Notes under the pieces: generated by a model | Told to the model about the DNA's origin: nothing | Seen by the model: only the letters and a program-made list of their open reading frames with translations | The model's database searches: none | Position numbers and translations under genes: made by a program | Source of the DNA: Haladaptatus salinisoli | GTDB lineage: Archaea > Halobacteriota > Halobacteria > Halobacteriales > Haladaptataceae | Direction of reading: 5' to 3' | DNA: 64,000 nt | Assembly (NCBI RefSeq): GCF_020614375.1 | Contig: NZ_CP085327.1 | Span: forward strand, 1,290,823 to 1,354,822 | In this document: positions 5,381 to 57,553 of the stretch, piece after piece | Numbering within the stretch: the first letter of the stretch is position 1 | Layout of the letters: the number at the start of each line of letters is the position of its first letter

Positions 5381-6838
5381 TCAGTAGGTCTTGGCGAAGT
5401 ACGCCGTCTCCTCGCTCTCGTCGCCGCAGACGGCGCACTCGTCGCCGACGGGTTCTTCGTCCCTGTCGAGGGGCACCATGACTATCTCCGCCGCGATCTG
5501 GTCCTTGATCTCGGCTTCGCACGCTTCGTCGCCGCACCACGCCGTCTTCACGTAGCCGCCGTGCTGACCGATGGTGCCGAGGATGTCGGCGCGGGAGTCG
5601 GCTTCGCGGATGTTCGCTTCGAGGTTCTCCTCGGCCGATTCGTACAGTTTGTCGTACACCGCGTCGAGGTGGTCTTCCACCGCTTCGGCGATACCGACGC
5701 GACTCTCTGCGACCGATTCGCCGTCGGGTCGGTGGACGACCGTCACCTCGTCGTCTTGGACCTCGTTCGGGCCGATTTCGAAGCGGACGGGGACGCCTTT
5801 GAGCTCCCACTCGTTGAACTTGAAACCGGGGTTGCGCTCGTCGCGGTCGTCCAGTTCGACGCGAACGCCGGCGTCTTCGAGGTCGTCCGCGACGTTGGCC
5901 GCGTAGGAGAGCACCTCCTCGCGGTTCTCCTCCTGCCAGATGGGGACGATGACGACCTGCTCGGGCGCGAGGGCTGGCGGGCAGACGAATCCCTGTTCGT
6001 CGCTGTGGGTCATGATGAGCGCCCCGAGCGCGCGCCACGACAGCCCCCACGAGGTCGTGTGGGCCACGCGCTCGTCCTCGTTCTCGTCGGTGAACAGGAG
6101 GTCGTAGGCCTCCGCGAAGCCCTGTCCTAGGTAGTGGCTCGTCGCGCTCTGGACGGATTTGCCGTCCGGCATCATCGCTTCCACCGTCGTCGTGGTGTCC
6201 GCGCCGGGGAACTTGTCGTGTTCGGGCTTGCGGCCGCGCATGACCGGGATGGCGAGCACCTCCTCGAAGAGGCGCGCGTACTGCTCGAGGCGGGTCATCG
6301 TCTCGTCCCACGCCTCCTCCTCGGTCGCGTGGGCGGTGTGGCCCTCCTGCCAGAGGAACTCCTTGGTGCGGAAGAAGGGTTTCGTGTCGGTGGCCTCCCA
6401 GCGGATGACGCTACACCACTGGTTGAGTCGGAGCGGGAGGTCGCGGTGGCTTCGCACCCACTGACTCATGAACGGCGTGATGATGCTCTCGCTGGTGGGA
6501 CGGAACGCGAGGCGCTCTTCGAGTTCTTCGTGGCCGCCGTGGGTGACCCACGCCACCTCGGGGTCGAACCCCTCGACGATGTCGCTCTCGCGTTCGAGGT
6601 AGCTCTCGGGGATGAGCGCGGGGAAGTAGGCGTTTCGCGACCCCGTCTCCTTGAACCACGAATCGAGGTGGTCCTGCACGCCCTCCCAGAGGGCGTACCC
6701 CCGGGGCCGGGTGACGATGAACCCGCCCATGGGGGCGTAGTCCGCGAGACCCGCCTTCAGTACCACTTCGGCGTACCAGTCCCCGGTTTCGTACTGTTTG
6801 CTTTTGGTTATCCCGAGTTCCTGTTCGTTGTCGCTCAT
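5381..6838 (-). CDS. proS: Prolyl-tRNA synthetase
   Basis: Charges tRNA-Pro with proline and is essential for translation. This 485-residue class II synthetase is of the archaeal/eukaryotic type, without the bacterial editing insertion. Motif 2 is seen as [20 protein letters not shown] and motif 3 as [17 protein letters not shown]. An anticodon-binding domain follows. The C-terminal zinc-binding extension keeps Cys pairs (CGDEACE and CAVCGDE), as in archaeal enzymes. The start at 6838 is supported by an A/T box (6862-6870 on the minus strand, ATTTAAGAG) about 28 bp upstream, which suggests a leaderless mRNA. It is divergent from the methylmalonyl-CoA mutase gene, with 136 bp between them. Confidence 0.97.
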
Positions 6839-53650: not shown

Positions 53651-55162
53651 ATGACCGCTCAGGCTGTCCAGGAGGACGAACTCGTTACCGTCATCGGCCT
53701 CGAGATTCACGTCCAACTGGAGACGGACACGAAGATATTCTGCGGCTGTTCGACGAAGCAAGACGACGCGGAGCCGAACACCTACACCTGCCCGGTCTGC
53801 CTCGGGCTTCCGGGGTCGCTCCCGGTGCTGAACGAGGCCGCCGTCGAGTACGCCGTCAAGGTCGGGAAGGCCATCGACGCCGACATCCCCGAGGAGACGC
53901 GCTTCCACCGGAAGAACTACTTCTACCCCGACCTGCCGAAGGGGTTCCAGATAACGCAGTACGACGCCCCCATCTGCCAGGACGGGAAGTTGGAGTTCCG
54001 CCACGAGGGCGAGACGCGAACCGTCGGCATCCACCGCGCTCACCTCGAAGAGGACCCCGGCAGCCTCCGCCACGTCCGCGACGGGAGCGGCGACATCGAA
54101 ACCCGCACCGTCGGCATCGACCGCGCGGATTACACGCTCGTCAACTACAACCGCGCCGGGACGCCCCTGATGGAGATCGTCACGGAACCCGACTTCCGCG
54201 AACCCGGCGAGGCGGTCTCCTTCCTCGAAAAACTCGAGGAGGTGCTGGAGTACCTCGGCGTCTTCGACTCGACGCGGGACGGCAGTCTGCGCGTGGACGC
54301 GAACCTCTCCATCGTCCCCGCCGAGGACATCGCCGACGACGGCACCATCTCCGAGGACGCGGACGCGAACCGAACCGAGGTGAAGAACATCTCCAGTCAC
54401 AAGGGCGCGGAGAGCGCGCTCGCCTACGAGGAGAGCCGCCAGCGCAACCTCATCAGGCGGGGGAAGGCGGTCGAACAGGAGACCCGTCACTTCAACGAGA
54501 CGCACGGTTCGACCGTCTCGATGCGCTCGAAGGAGGCGGAGAAGGACTACCGCTACTTCGCCGAGGCGGACATCCCGCCGCTGCGGGTGAGCGACTGGAA
54601 GGAGAAGCTGGCGATTCCGGAACTGCCGGACGCCCGCCGCGAACGCTTCCGCGAGGAGTACGGACTGAGCGCGGAGGCCGCGAGCAAACTCACGTCGAGC
54701 AAGCAGGTCGCGGACTTCTACGAGGACGTGGCCGAGAAGTTCGACCCCGACCTCGCCGCGACGTGGGTCGCCGACAACCTGCTCGGCGAACTCAACTACC
54801 GCGACATGGAGATCACCGACGTGGAGGGCCGACTGGACGAGTTCACGGCCCTCATCCGCCTCGTCGCCGAGGACGAGATTACGGTCAAGAACGCCGAAGA
54901 AATCGTCCTCCGCGAGATGCTGGACGAGGGCGACGACCCCGAAACCGTCATCGAGCGAGAGGGACTCGGCAAGGCCGACGCGGGCGAAGTCGAGCGGGCG
55001 GTCGAGGAGGCCATCGACGAGAACCCGGACACGGTCGAGGACTATCACGCAGGGGAGGGCGGCGCCATCAACTTCCTCGTCGGGCAGGTCATGCAGAAGA
55101 CCGGCGGGAGCGCGGACCCCGGTTCGGTGAACGGGATGCTCCGAGAGCGACTGGACGAGTAG
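53651..55162 (+). CDS. gatB: Glu-tRNA(Gln)/Asp-tRNA(Asn) amidotransferase subunit B
   Basis: Subunit of the GatCAB complex that amidates mischarged tRNAs. The 503-residue protein opens LVTVIGLEIHVQLETDTKIF and has the Cys pairs CGC and CPVC (zinc site), then PDLPKGFQITQYDAPICQ and NRAGTPLMEIVTEPDFREPG. The C-terminal GatB/Yqey tail domain ends in MLRERLDE. gatA and gatC are not adjacent. The start at 53651 is supported by an A/T box at about 53618-53628. A structured segment of three hairpins follows the stop. Confidence 0.96.
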   Translation: MTAQAVQEDELVTVIGLEIHVQLETDTKIFCGCSTKQDDAEPNTYTCPVCLGLPGSLPVLNEAAVEYAVKVGKAIDADIPEETRFHRKNYFYPDLPKGFQITQYDAPICQDGKLEFRHEGETRTVGIHRAHLEEDPGSLRHVRDGSGDIETRTVGIDRADYTLVNYNRAGTPLMEIVTEPDFREPGEAVSFLEKLEEVLEYLGVFDSTRDGSLRVDANLSIVPAEDIADDGTISEDADANRTEVKNISSHKGAESALAYEESRQRNLIRRGKAVEQETRHFNETHGSTVSMRSKEAEKDYRYFAEADIPPLRVSDWKEKLAIPELPDARRERFREEYGLSAEAASKLTSSKQVADFYEDVAEKFDPDLAATWVADNLLGELNYRDMEITDVEGRLDEFTALIRLVAEDEITVKNAEEIVLREMLDEGDDPETVIEREGLGKADAGEVERAVEEAIDENPDTVEDYHAGEGGAINFLVGQVMQKTGGSADPGSVNGMLRERLDE

Positions 55163-55277: not shown

Positions 55278-55371
55278 GCGACATATTCTACCCACGTATA
55301 TAGTCGATTAATTTATTAATTATTCCATCAGCAAATTATATCGCGTCGTGGATGATCGTAACAAACGCATC

Positions 55372-56082
55372 ATGCCATCACGACGCGATATGCTCAAGAA
55401 GCTCGGCGCGGCGGGAACGGCGGCGGTCGCGGTCTCGGGGCTGTCGGGCTCCGCCGCCGCCGAACCCGGTTCCATCCCGTCGCACTACCTCGCGGAGTAC
55501 CGCGACACGGGTGCCAACTGGGGAATCGACTGGACGTACCTCGCGGGAATCGGCTGGATAGAGACCCACCACGGCCAGTACGAGGCCGGCTGCGATACGT
55601 CGTCCGCGGGGGCGAGAGGACCGATGCAGTTCATGCCCTCGACGTGGGACTACTACGGTCTCGACGGCGACGGCGACGGGTACGCGAACATCTGCGACTA
55701 TCAGGACGCGATTCCGTCCGCCGCCTACTACCTGACCGACAACGGCGCGCCCGAGGACTGGGACGGCGCGCTGTACGCCTACAACCACAGTTGGTCCTAC
55801 GTCAGCGACGTGAAGAACGCCGCGGCGTACTACCGCGACGTTTACGGAAGCGGCGGCGGTGGCGGGTTCGTCGACGGCGACCGGGTGACGCCGACCGTCA
55901 ACCTGAACACGCGGGAGCAGCCGGGGACGGAGTCGCCCGTCGTCGCCACGGTCTCGCCGGGCGAGGTCGGCGAGATCATGAACGGGCCGACGACCGAGGA
56001 CGGCTACACCTGGTGGGGCGTCCACTGGCTCGACCGCAACGTCTGGGGCTGGTCCGTCGAACGCTACCTCACCTACGCGTAA
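55372..56082 (+). CDS. Tat-exported lytic transglycosylase-like protein with SH3 domain
   Basis: A 236-residue protein. It begins MPSRRDMLKKLG, a twin-arginine motif, with cleavage likely after SGSAAA (about residue 30). A lysozyme-fold lytic transglycosylase domain follows (31-155). Glu64 in LAGIGWIETHHG is the probable catalytic acid, and AGARGPMQFMPSTW (79-92) and LYAYNHSWSYVSDV (134-147) are the family motifs. After a Gly stretch comes a bacterial SH3 domain (about 165-236). The known substrate is bacterial murein, which haloarchaea do not make. GTG 55348 is an alternative start, but AATTATATC about 30 bp upstream fits ATG 55372. The upstream region is unusually A/T-rich, a sign of possible transfer. 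Confidence 0.88.
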   Translation: MPSRRDMLKKLGAAGTAAVAVSGLSGSAAAEPGSIPSHYLAEYRDTGANWGIDWTYLAGIGWIETHHGQYEAGCDTSSAGARGPMQFMPSTWDYYGLDGDGDGYANICDYQDAIPSAAYYLTDNGAPEDWDGALYAYNHSWSYVSDVKNAAAYYRDVYGSGGGGGFVDGDRVTPTVNLNTREQPGTESPVVATVSPGEVGEIMNGPTTEDGYTWWGVHWLDRNVWGWSVERYLTYA

Positions 56083-56125: not shown

Positions 56126-57553
56126 TCAGTCCGCCGTCGCCGGTTTACGCTCGTCTTCCAGCACGCCTCGTCGCCAGCGACCGAGGCTGAACCAGAGCGC
56201 GCCCACGACGAACGACCCGACGGCCGAGAGCGACCACGACCACCAGAGGCCGCCGACGCCCCACGCCAGTCCCGAGACGACGACCGGCCCGAGCGACAGG
56301 GTCCACTGGTAGGCGAGCAGGAGCGCGACGGGGATGCGGAGCACCCAGCGCGAGAGGAACGAGAGCGACATCGCGACGCCGGTGTCGCCCGCGCCGCGGA
56401 AGCCGCCCTGAATCACCATCAGCCCGCCGAAGAAGGCCAGAAACGGGCCGATGACGTAGAGGAAGTCGACGCCTTCTTCGACCACCGCCGGGTCGTTCGT
56501 GAACACCCGCATCCCCACGGCGGGGAACGCGACCATCAACCCGCCGGCGGCGAAGAGCACGCCCAGCGTGCCGGCGGTCGCCTTCCACGTCACTTCGGCG
56601 GCCCTGTCGGGCGTCTCCGCGCCGAGGTTCTGGCCGACGCCCGTCGCGGCGGCCTGACCGACCGCGCCCGAGACGGTCCACGAGACGGACATCAGCCTGA
56701 CGCCGATACCGTATGCGGCGGTGGGGACCGGCCCGAATCGGGCGACCAGCGCGGCCATCGCCACGGCGGCGAAACTCCGGGCCGCGCCGTCGACGGTCGC
56801 CGGGGAACCGACGGTGACGAGTTTCTTCAACACCGGCCAGTCCGGGCGCAGGTCGTCGAGCCGAAGTCGGATGCCCCAGTCACCGCGAAGGAGCACGTAG
56901 ACGCCGACGATGGCCGCGAACACGCGAGCGACGAGCGTGGCGACCGCCGCGCCGCGAGTGCCCATCTCGGGGAACGGACCGTAACCGAGGATGAGAAACG
57001 GGTCGAGAACGACGTTCATCCCCGCCGAGAGCACCATCAGCCACATCGCGGTTTTGGTGTCGCCCGCGCCGCGGAGGACGGCGCGGAAGACGAAGAAGAG
57101 GAACGTGAACGGGATGGAAAAGAAGAGCACCTCGATGTACCGGAGCGCCTCGCGGAACACCGCACCCTCCGCGCCGACGAGCGAGAGCAGGGGGTATCGA
57201 AAGGCGTAACCGAGCGACGCGAGGACGACGCCGACGAGGACGGTGAGCAGCGTCGTCTGCGCGACGACGTTGTCCGCGGCCCGGTCGTCGCCGGCGCCGA
57301 CGTGCTGCGAGACGAGCGCGACCGACGACGCGGTGAGCCCCATCGCCAGCGAGACGAACAGCCACGACGTCGGGAACATGAGCGAGACCGCGGCGACCGC
57401 GGCGGTGCTGACCTGCCCGACCCAGAACATATCCGCGAGGTTGTAGAACGTCTGGAGGAGGTTGCCGACGACCAGCGGCCACGCGAGGCTCATCAGCTTC
57501 GGCGTGATGGCTCCGTCGGTCATATCGACGCGACTCTCGGCTCGTCGGGACAC
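56126..57553 (-). CDS. MATE family efflux transporter (2)
   Basis: A 475-residue protein with twelve predicted spans. MATE features include TDGAITPKLMSLAWPLVVGN at the start, FYNLADMFWVGQVSTAAVAA, KTAMWLMVLSAGMNVVLDPF and GRFGPVPTAAYGIG-like elements in the second half. It is a paralog of the 45050-46462 MATE. GTG 57553 was chosen because CGTTTAAGA (about 57576-57585) is 28 bp upstream; an ATG ten codons inside is possible. It is convergent with the transglycosylase gene. A role in export of toxic compounds is likely, but the substrate is unknown. Confidence 0.93.
   Translation of the reverse strand: MSRRAESRVDMTDGAITPKLMSLAWPLVVGNLLQTFYNLADMFWVGQVSTAAVAAVSLMFPTSWLFVSLAMGLTASSVALVSQHVGAGDDRAADNVVAQTTLLTVLVGVVLASLGYAFRYPLLSLVGAEGAVFREALRYIEVLFFSIPFTFLFFVFRAVLRGAGDTKTAMWLMVLSAGMNVVLDPFLILGYGPFPEMGTRGAAVATLVARVFAAIVGVYVLLRGDWGIRLRLDDLRPDWPVLKKLVTVGSPATVDGAARSFAAVAMAALVARFGPVPTAAYGIGVRLMSVSWTVSGAVGQAAATGVGQNLGAETPDRAAEVTWKATAGTLGVLFAAGGLMVAFPAVGMRVFTNDPAVVEEGVDFLYVIGPFLAFFGGLMVIQGGFRGAGDTGVAMSLSFLSRWVLRIPVALLLAYQWTLSLGPVVVSGLAWGVGGLWWSWSLSAVGSFVVGALWFSLGRWRRGVLEDERKPATAD

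Follow-up and report, generated by a model that had tools for sequence, protein, structure and literature searches.

Archaeal peptidoglycan hydrolases that kill bacteria, with a binding domain common to different warheads, were described by Strock et al. 2025 (PMC12352652). That paper notes an Opp-MppA enrichment, leaves open whether the bacteria are rivals or food, and describes a screen that demanded a Pfam wall-binding domain (PMC12352652). That screen may have missed members such as the SLT-SH3 protein analysed below, whose binding domain lies under the Pfam cut-off. As presented there, Woldo and Danwoldo resemble the Haladaptatus set in being Tat-exported haloarchaeal murein hydrolases with one binding-domain type on different catalytic domains per genome and a patchy spread. 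They differ in that theirs is PG_binding_1 with M23 and glucosaminidase, whereas here an SH3 domain is combined with SLT, M23, Amidase_2 or glucosaminidase, and in that the Haladaptatus set goes with a putative locus for muropeptide catabolism. AnmK, NagZ, anhydro and muropeptide are terms that the main text of PMC12352652 does not use.

The catalytic part of the SLT protein has two closer points of reference. With the E. coli Slt35/MltB family it shares the core fold, the catalytic Glu and the QFMPS motif, but it matches the core only, falls far under the NCBIfam MltB cut-offs, and adds an SH3 domain and predicted archaeal Tat export. The Slt35-like transglycosylases of Rubrobacteraceae form its sister group in our tree and are about 50% identical (among the best 80 of 117 confirmed loci), but a long branch separates them from the archaeal clade, and these bacterial enzymes presumably act on their own wall.

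Bacillus subtilis rescues murein sugars with a gene cluster comprising NamZ/YbbC, NagZ, AmiE/YbbE and MurQRP. Similarly, the Haladaptatus locus has genes for NamZ, NagZ and an AmiE-like hydrolase close together. Unlike the Bacillus cluster, it has AnmK and no identifiable MurQ, an Opp-type transporter instead of the phosphotransferase system MurP, an IclR-type regulator nearby and an archaeal host without murein. Among the titles listed from the open-licence literature, none concerned archaeal AnmK/NamZ/NagZ pathways or haloarchaeal murein use. As far as those titles go, what appears to be new is a family of enzymes in which the SH3 module is joined to four warheads, the gene conversion of this module, and the haloarchaeal NamZ-NagZ-AnmK-Opp locus linked to the family.

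A predicted Tat-exported lytic transglycosylase fused to an SH3 domain

The gene lies in the window, the whole stretch of 64,000 nucleotides of Haladaptatus salinisoli DNA that was analysed. Its features and surroundings are as follows.

53651..55162, + strand: gatB, the upstream neighbour conserved by synteny, given for context and not part of the system; we take the name from knowledge of the sequence, not from a family scan
55333..55341, + strand: TATA-like AAATTATAT in an A/T-rich promoter region; an A/T-rich, TATA-like stretch recurs in 6/6 usable upstreams
55372..56082, + strand: predicted Tat-exported lytic transglycosylase with a C-terminal SH3 domain; 236 aa, starting at ATG, with GTG 55348 in the same open frame
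55372..55461, + strand: Tat signal peptide MPSRRDMLKKLG...SAAA, residues 1–30; TIGR01409 over cut-off, cleavage site inferred
55474..55851, + strand: Slt35-like core transglycosylase domain, residues 35–160; Pfam SLT_2 and SLT, PDB profile, Foldseek
55561..55563, + strand: codon of catalytic Glu64, invariant in 27/27 and aligned with the Slt35 Glu
55867..56079, + strand: SH3 (SH3b-type) putative wall-binding module, residues 166–236; profile scans, AlphaFold model
55903..56070, + strand: 168-nt SH3 core, homogenised with its counterpart in an M23 gene some 120 kb away, from which it differs at 3 positions
56126..57553, − strand: MATE-type transporter, a convergent neighbour conserved by synteny, given for context; the name comes from the original prediction

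The protein is ordered as a Tat signal, a compact Slt35-like core, a Gly-rich linker and the SH3 domain, with the motifs E64, GPMQFMPSTW (83–92) and AYNHSWSY (136–143). The core matches Pfam SLT_2 (E 1e-12; 48.4 bits, cut-off 24.3), over the partial profile 149–200 of 292, and Pfam SLT (E 2e-6; 27.8 bits, cut-off 21.3). Against MltB as NCBIfam defines it (TIGR02282/TIGR02283), the protein scores 37–38 bits versus cut-offs of 281 and 248; by these profiles it is predicted to have a related core and is not MltB. In the AlphaFold model (mean pLDDT 82), residues 37–158 form a helical domain and residues 171–235 a beta domain; the model's top Foldseek matches are SltB2, Slt35 and SltB3 with a probability of 1.00, the TM by query being only 0.34–0.44. 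E64, Q86 and N138 are invariant in 27/27 aligned relatives (18 haloarchaeal and 9 bacterial), and a profile alignment pairs Glu64 with the Slt35 Glu in 'VETRWG', which by count we take to be Glu162. The twin-arginine signal scores 18.2 bits with TIGR01409 (cut-off 16.7), RR stands in the N-terminus of all 18 haloarchaeal rows of the alignment, and the mature protein is acidic (pI 4.1).

The gene is not a chance reading, since clear orthologues occur in 18/392 genomes of the order. The original prediction had called this protein a Tat-exported lytic transglycosylase with an intact catalytic Glu, had staked itself on conservation of that Glu and had proposed a search for homologues in other haloarchaea. 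The family scores, the Slt35-type fold match, the invariant E64 and the intact haloarchaeal orthologues bear it out, and the product is confirmed, at the level of sequence and model, as a predicted Tat-exported lytic transglycosylase fused to what is probably a bacterial-type SH3 domain.

The SH3 part needs separate consideration. With Pfam SH3_3 the window's SLT copy scores 15.3 bits, under the cut-off of 27, and a PDB search with this part alone returned no significant chain (best E 0.64, a spectrin). The same module in the relative L024 reaches 61 bits, over the Pfam cut-off, and a profile of 12 module members finds cell-wall SH3b domains in the PDB, including that of an autolytic lysozyme (E 9e-4 for the best two chains). 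SH3_3 is detected in 11/12 members at a lenient E of up to 1; among seven close-module proteins scanned, the Pfam SH3 match is under cut-off or absent in six (P0001, L002, L122, L153, L101 and L011) and over it only in L024. Because L024 passes the cut-off and the 12-member profile retrieves SH3b chains, the originally claimed SH3 fusion is probably right, though the window copy is sub-threshold: the module is predicted to be an SH3b-type domain that binds murein.

The SLT gene as an old resident of its locus

The SLT gene sits between gatB and the MATE gene in 6/6 Haladaptataceae loci checked (the window and L005–L009). The gatB–SLT gap ranges from about 0.2 to 2.2 kb across the six and holds a response-regulator-like gene in Halorussus aquaticus. 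A match to SLT is present in 19/392 genomes of the order, intact in 18, and in 8/9 genomes of the host genus. Among the best 80 of 117 confirmed loci, the closest named ones are from H. halobius (93%) and from H. litoreus and H. pallidirubidus (83–84%), followed by Halorussus aquaticus (79%) and Halocatena (68–70%). The nearest bacterial relatives in the same set are the Rubrobacteraceae enzymes. In an 81-row tree, which has few columns and only top matches on its bacterial side, the 18 archaeal rows form one clade (100/99) beside four Rubrobacteraceae (96/79), on a long stem. The bacterial origin first proposed finds support in the phylogeny, which points to actinobacteria, with Rubrobacteraceae a lead as to the putative donor. 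Judged by synteny and tree, the gene is an old resident of the Haladaptataceae locus.

The original prediction had also read the A/T-rich upstream stretch as a hint of acquisition from bacteria. Of the 32 intergenic upstreams in the window this one is the richest in A/T. A TATA-like core within A/T-rich sequence is, however, seen again in 6/6 usable orthologous upstreams, a seventh row (L090) having been set aside as mainly coding sequence. The gene's GC3 is 0.90, host-like against a median of 0.87 for 48 called window genes. Because of this recurrence and the ordinary GC3, the stretch reads as the archaeal promoter of a long-resident gene, and the acquisition scar is rejected. A partnership with the MATE pump, also suggested at first, gains no support from what is conserved synteny only.

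One further genome, G066, carries an SLT relic downstream of gatB (L198, about 5894–6034), in which the Tat signal and a QFMPATW piece are left and most of the catalytic domain is lost. The same locus holds a topoisomerase I-like ORF with, as judged by eye, an apparent intein insertion (L198:1479-5654).

One SH3 module joined to several warheads

The SH3 part alone, used as a query, is found in 49/392 genomes and 15/95 genera at E 1e-15. From the fetched loci we assembled 83 distinct ORFs with a strong module (at least 120 residues, BLASTP at least 56 bits). A murein-cutting domain (SLT, M23, Amidase_2 or glucosaminidase) is present in 80/83, distributed as Amidase_2 36, M23 22, SLT 17, glucosaminidase 4 and SLT plus M23 1, with none in 3. 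A loose RR regular expression is passed by 82/83, all but a fragment. Representative proteins give Pfam matches that confirm their warhead families; together these warheads are predicted to cover the glycan, amide and peptide bonds of murein.

Simple checks of active-site motifs are passed by 23/23 M23, 18/18 SLT and 4/4 glucosaminidase domains. A strict zinc-site expression for the amidases is passed by 10/36, the same number after one relaxation; the failures viewed mostly end in CPGP or CPYPDW, which we read, as an unscored judgement, as a Cys variant of the zinc site.

The combinations vary. Halocatena marina (L011) has SLT-SH3, SH3-M23 and SH3-amidase genes in tandem, G061 (L189) has a trio of glucosaminidase-SH3, SH3-M23 and SH3-amidase, and G352 encodes SLT-SH3-M23 as a single chain of 412 residues. 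In Halocatena salina the SLT–M23 pair sits on a plasmid record. Besides SLT-SH3, the window's genome encodes other murein-type proteins that bear RR signals: an SH3-M23 protein that carries the same module, a second M23 protein whose similarity to SH3 is weak (39% over 49 residues) and gives no Pfam SH3 match, and two amidases in which SH3 is not matched; a search for the glucosaminidase family PF01832 found none in this genome. G152 is the only member of the host genus that lacks the SLT gene; its SH3-amidase match (L117/L133) is interrupted by TGA.

Below the 56-bit threshold, weaker relatives of the module occur on proteins with a GH18, S15 peptidase or SleB-like part, and the wider SH3 group is therefore not confined to murein enzymes. 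GH18 proteins that bear an RR signal and a pair of SH3 domains occur in two Halorussus-type loci (L121, L155), in one case within the AnmK locus of G124; two others (L147, L154) encode an S15-type peptidase with two SH3 domains, the RR signal being seen in L147. RR-signal proteins at L120, L156, L184 and L186 combine SH3 with a C-terminal domain that by eye we take to be SleB-like; a Pfam scan of this part, for L120 only, gave no match at E 0.1. Actinarchaeum halophilum and a relative (L024 and L025) have an ORF of 871 residues from about 3877, with an RR signal, a DUF900 alpha/beta hydrolase, two SH3 domains, Amidase_2 and two more SH3 domains.

Gene conversion as the probable explanation of SH3 homogenisation

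The 168-nt SH3 cores of the SLT and M23 genes differ at 3 positions in the window's genome and at 2 in H. halobius (G186). Between these two species the orthologous cores differ more, at 11 positions for the SLT copies and 12 for the M23 copies. Nine informative sites of the core group by genome, 1 groups by warhead and 0 otherwise, and all 9 are third codon positions. Just 5' of the core, the SLT–M23 differences are the same in both species. Since the cores are near-identical within a genome while those of sister-species orthologues differ at 11–12 positions, homogenisation is best explained by gene conversion that was limited to the SH3 module and took place in each of the two species.

In a four-sequence site test, whose genome pairs are not independent, genome was favoured over warhead in 65/78 SLT/M23, 14/21 SLT/AMI and 12/21 AMI/M23 pairs. 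The warhead signal was the stronger in 13/78 SLT/M23 pairs, and homogenisation is not upheld as a universal rule. The warhead was favoured in 10/15 pairs among six other Haladaptatus (G108, G166, G190, G031, G090 and G161) and in 3/3 among Halorussus-type genomes (G097, G118 and G176). Because some groups favour warhead over genome, conversion would be episodic.

A putative muropeptide catabolic locus in the same genome

The window's genome carries the SLT gene on contig C1 and a catabolic locus on contig C3. AnmK of this locus matches PF03702 (E 1e-101) and NF007148 (443 bits, cut-off 387), NagZ matches NF003740 (236.7 bits, cut-off 207), and NamZ matches PF07075 (E 3e-80) and PF20732. The locus (L230, L203 and L231) comprises an IclR-type regulator, an RR-signal GH18, a creatininase-like gene, NagZ, NamZ and the protein U397, together with a beta-lactamase-family hydrolase, HAD, AnmK, GNAT, SDR, an Opp-type ABC transporter (OppABCDF) and an enolase-superfamily gene. 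The IclR-type name is taken from H. halobius and H. aquaticus records, and the permease, ATPase subunits and minor genes are named by similarity to the annotated H. aquaticus locus. The AnmK locus lies on an 816-kb plasmid record in H. halobius and a 404-kb plasmid record in H. aquaticus; the window's genome is listed with 5.4% contamination, and the locus nevertheless recurs in named records.

AnmK is present in 26/392 genomes and NamZ in 26/392 (E 1e-20), exactly the same 26. The 18 AnmK loci fetched, of 25 beyond the window's own, contain NamZ in 17, NagZ in 14, U397 in 16 and an OppB-like permease in 17, three of these at only 25–28% identity. An exported murein- or chitin-type enzyme is encoded inside six of the 18: glucosaminidase-SH3 (L232), GH18 with two SH3 domains (L233) and RR-signal amidases (L235, L244, L247 and L248). 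AnmK matches are incomplete in G152 (contig C3) and G190, and G152 also has split NamZ matches; partial matches of this kind and the interrupted amidase of G152 may reflect decay or assembly error.

MurNAc-6-phosphate etherase (MurQ), sought in the window's genome, gave three matches, none above 33 bits (cut-off 302); this leaves a gap in the murein-sugar pathway. U397 (L203:4553-5746, − strand, contig C3) has no match in Pfam or NCBIfam at E 1e-5. Its model is TIM-barrel-like (pTM 0.83), with C. difficile Cwp19, a lytic transglycosylase, and the E. coli PgaB C-terminal domain as best structural matches (TM by query 0.54–0.58). These point to a glycosidase, and U397 is rejected as the missing etherase.

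Exoenzymes and putative catabolic locus tend to occur together

By counts that are not phylogenetically independent, the SH3 module is found in 18/26 genomes with AnmK and 31/366 without (p 2e-12), in 5/11 versus 29/353 outside the host family (p 0.002) and, with genera counted by hand, in 7/11 versus 8/84 genera (p 1.4e-4). The SLT gene is present in 12/26 AnmK genomes versus 6/366 others, and in 2/11 versus 4/353 outside the host family (p 0.01). A strong SH3 module is missing from 8/26 AnmK genomes, and because AnmK is absent from 6/18 SLT genomes (G097, G118, G326, G338, G352 and G389) and from 31/49 SH3-module genomes, the exoenzymes are also kept without the pathway.

Discussion

From the observed domains, catalytic residues, signals, family membership, co-occurrence, locus structure and SH3 homogenisation, we propose that the exoenzymes probably digest bacterial murein and feed the catabolic pathway, possibly with killing. 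The steps at which we infer enzyme activity, substrate, uptake and nutritional benefit would run as follows. The SLT protein would leave the cell folded, via Tat, dock on bacterial murein through its SH3 domain and, as a lytic transglycosylase, cleave the MurNAc–GlcNAc backbone so that 1,6-anhydroMurNAc ends remain. Its putative partners, exported separately, would be the two M23 endopeptidases, of which one carries the same SH3 and the other a stretch weakly similar to it, and the two amidases with Tat-type signals, these peptidases and amidases cutting the stems outside. Freed muropeptides would enter, probably via the OppABCDF-type transporter encoded beside AnmK, and be taken apart inside the cell by NamZ, NagZ, an AmiE-like serine hydrolase and AnmK. 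Lytic transglycosylases characteristically yield anhydroMurNAc, which makes AnmK a close fit to the SLT enzyme. The primary use would be nutrition from bacterial walls, dead or alive, with killing a possible consequence or first step.

The original prediction had named bacterial walls as the likely target and left weapon and feeding side by side. Feeding now has more direct support than weaponry, because murein-type exported enzymes are accompanied by an intracellular set with murein-specific family names; the catabolic locus tilts the choice that way, and killing may still occur, the two uses being compatible. Against feeding stand the separate contigs of the SLT gene and the catabolic locus, the SLT and SH3-module genomes without AnmK, the AnmK genomes without a strong SH3 module, the pathway gap and the distant SH3 relatives on non-murein enzymes; other amino sugars may also have been the reason for acquiring AnmK, NamZ and NagZ. 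That the enzymes are antibacterial effectors first, lysing competitors while nutrition is incidental, we regard as unlikely though worth serious consideration. There is a precedent in Woldo and Danwoldo of Halogranum salarium, two Tat-exported haloarchaeal hydrolases that have a common binding-domain type and kill Halalkalibacterium halodurans (PMC12352652). A modular binding domain with interchangeable warheads, the patchy distribution of SLT in the order (18 intact in 392), retention in genomes without AnmK and the plasmid-borne pair of Halocatena salina all agree with such a role. However, the enzymes are strongly associated with the catabolic locus, some are encoded inside it, and in the host genus SLT is not patchy (8/9) and keeps a conserved housekeeping neighbourhood.

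Two other explanations fare worse. To our knowledge haloarchaea have no murein, and GH18 and S15 proteins carry distant relatives of the SH3 module, as would suit an archaeal or environmental non-murein polymer (an S-layer glycan or a chitin-like one) attacked for surface remodelling or feeding. We consider this very improbable: four murein-type catalytic families share the one SH3 module, in keeping with the target first proposed, the SLT protein matches lytic transglycosylases, and the family names of AnmK and NamZ imply murein-specific substrates. Least credible of all, and close to dismissed, is a prophage endolysin or recent stray bacterial import. The closest non-archaeal relatives of SLT are indeed bacterial, at about 50% identity among the best 80 of 117 confirmed loci, but no SLT relative was found in the viral contigs and phage records searched, the neighbourhood is not viral, and the Tat signal, the acidic mature protein (pI 4.1) and the host-like GC3 speak for a resident gene. 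A phage origin is rejected on these grounds, and a recent import by the conserved gatB–MATE position and the single deep archaeal clade.

Returning to murein as food, the broader proposal is a complete murein-eating life style in Haladaptatus and some other haloarchaea, with a modular exoenzyme kit, an SH3 module copied between warheads by gene conversion and a dedicated uptake and catabolic locus (NamZ, NagZ, AnmK, Opp and the Cwp19-like U397); we give this an even chance of being correct. The kit shows that murein-enzyme genes can cluster in archaea, and its SH3 module offers a sequence handle for finding more such enzymes. Moreover, the conserved archaeal AnmK-NamZ-NagZ-transporter locus makes the question of rivals or food testable. 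If the proposal is true, these organisms may bridge the missing etherase step in a new way, and the system would be an archaeal counterpart of bacterial wall recycling in organisms that have no wall of their own to recycle.
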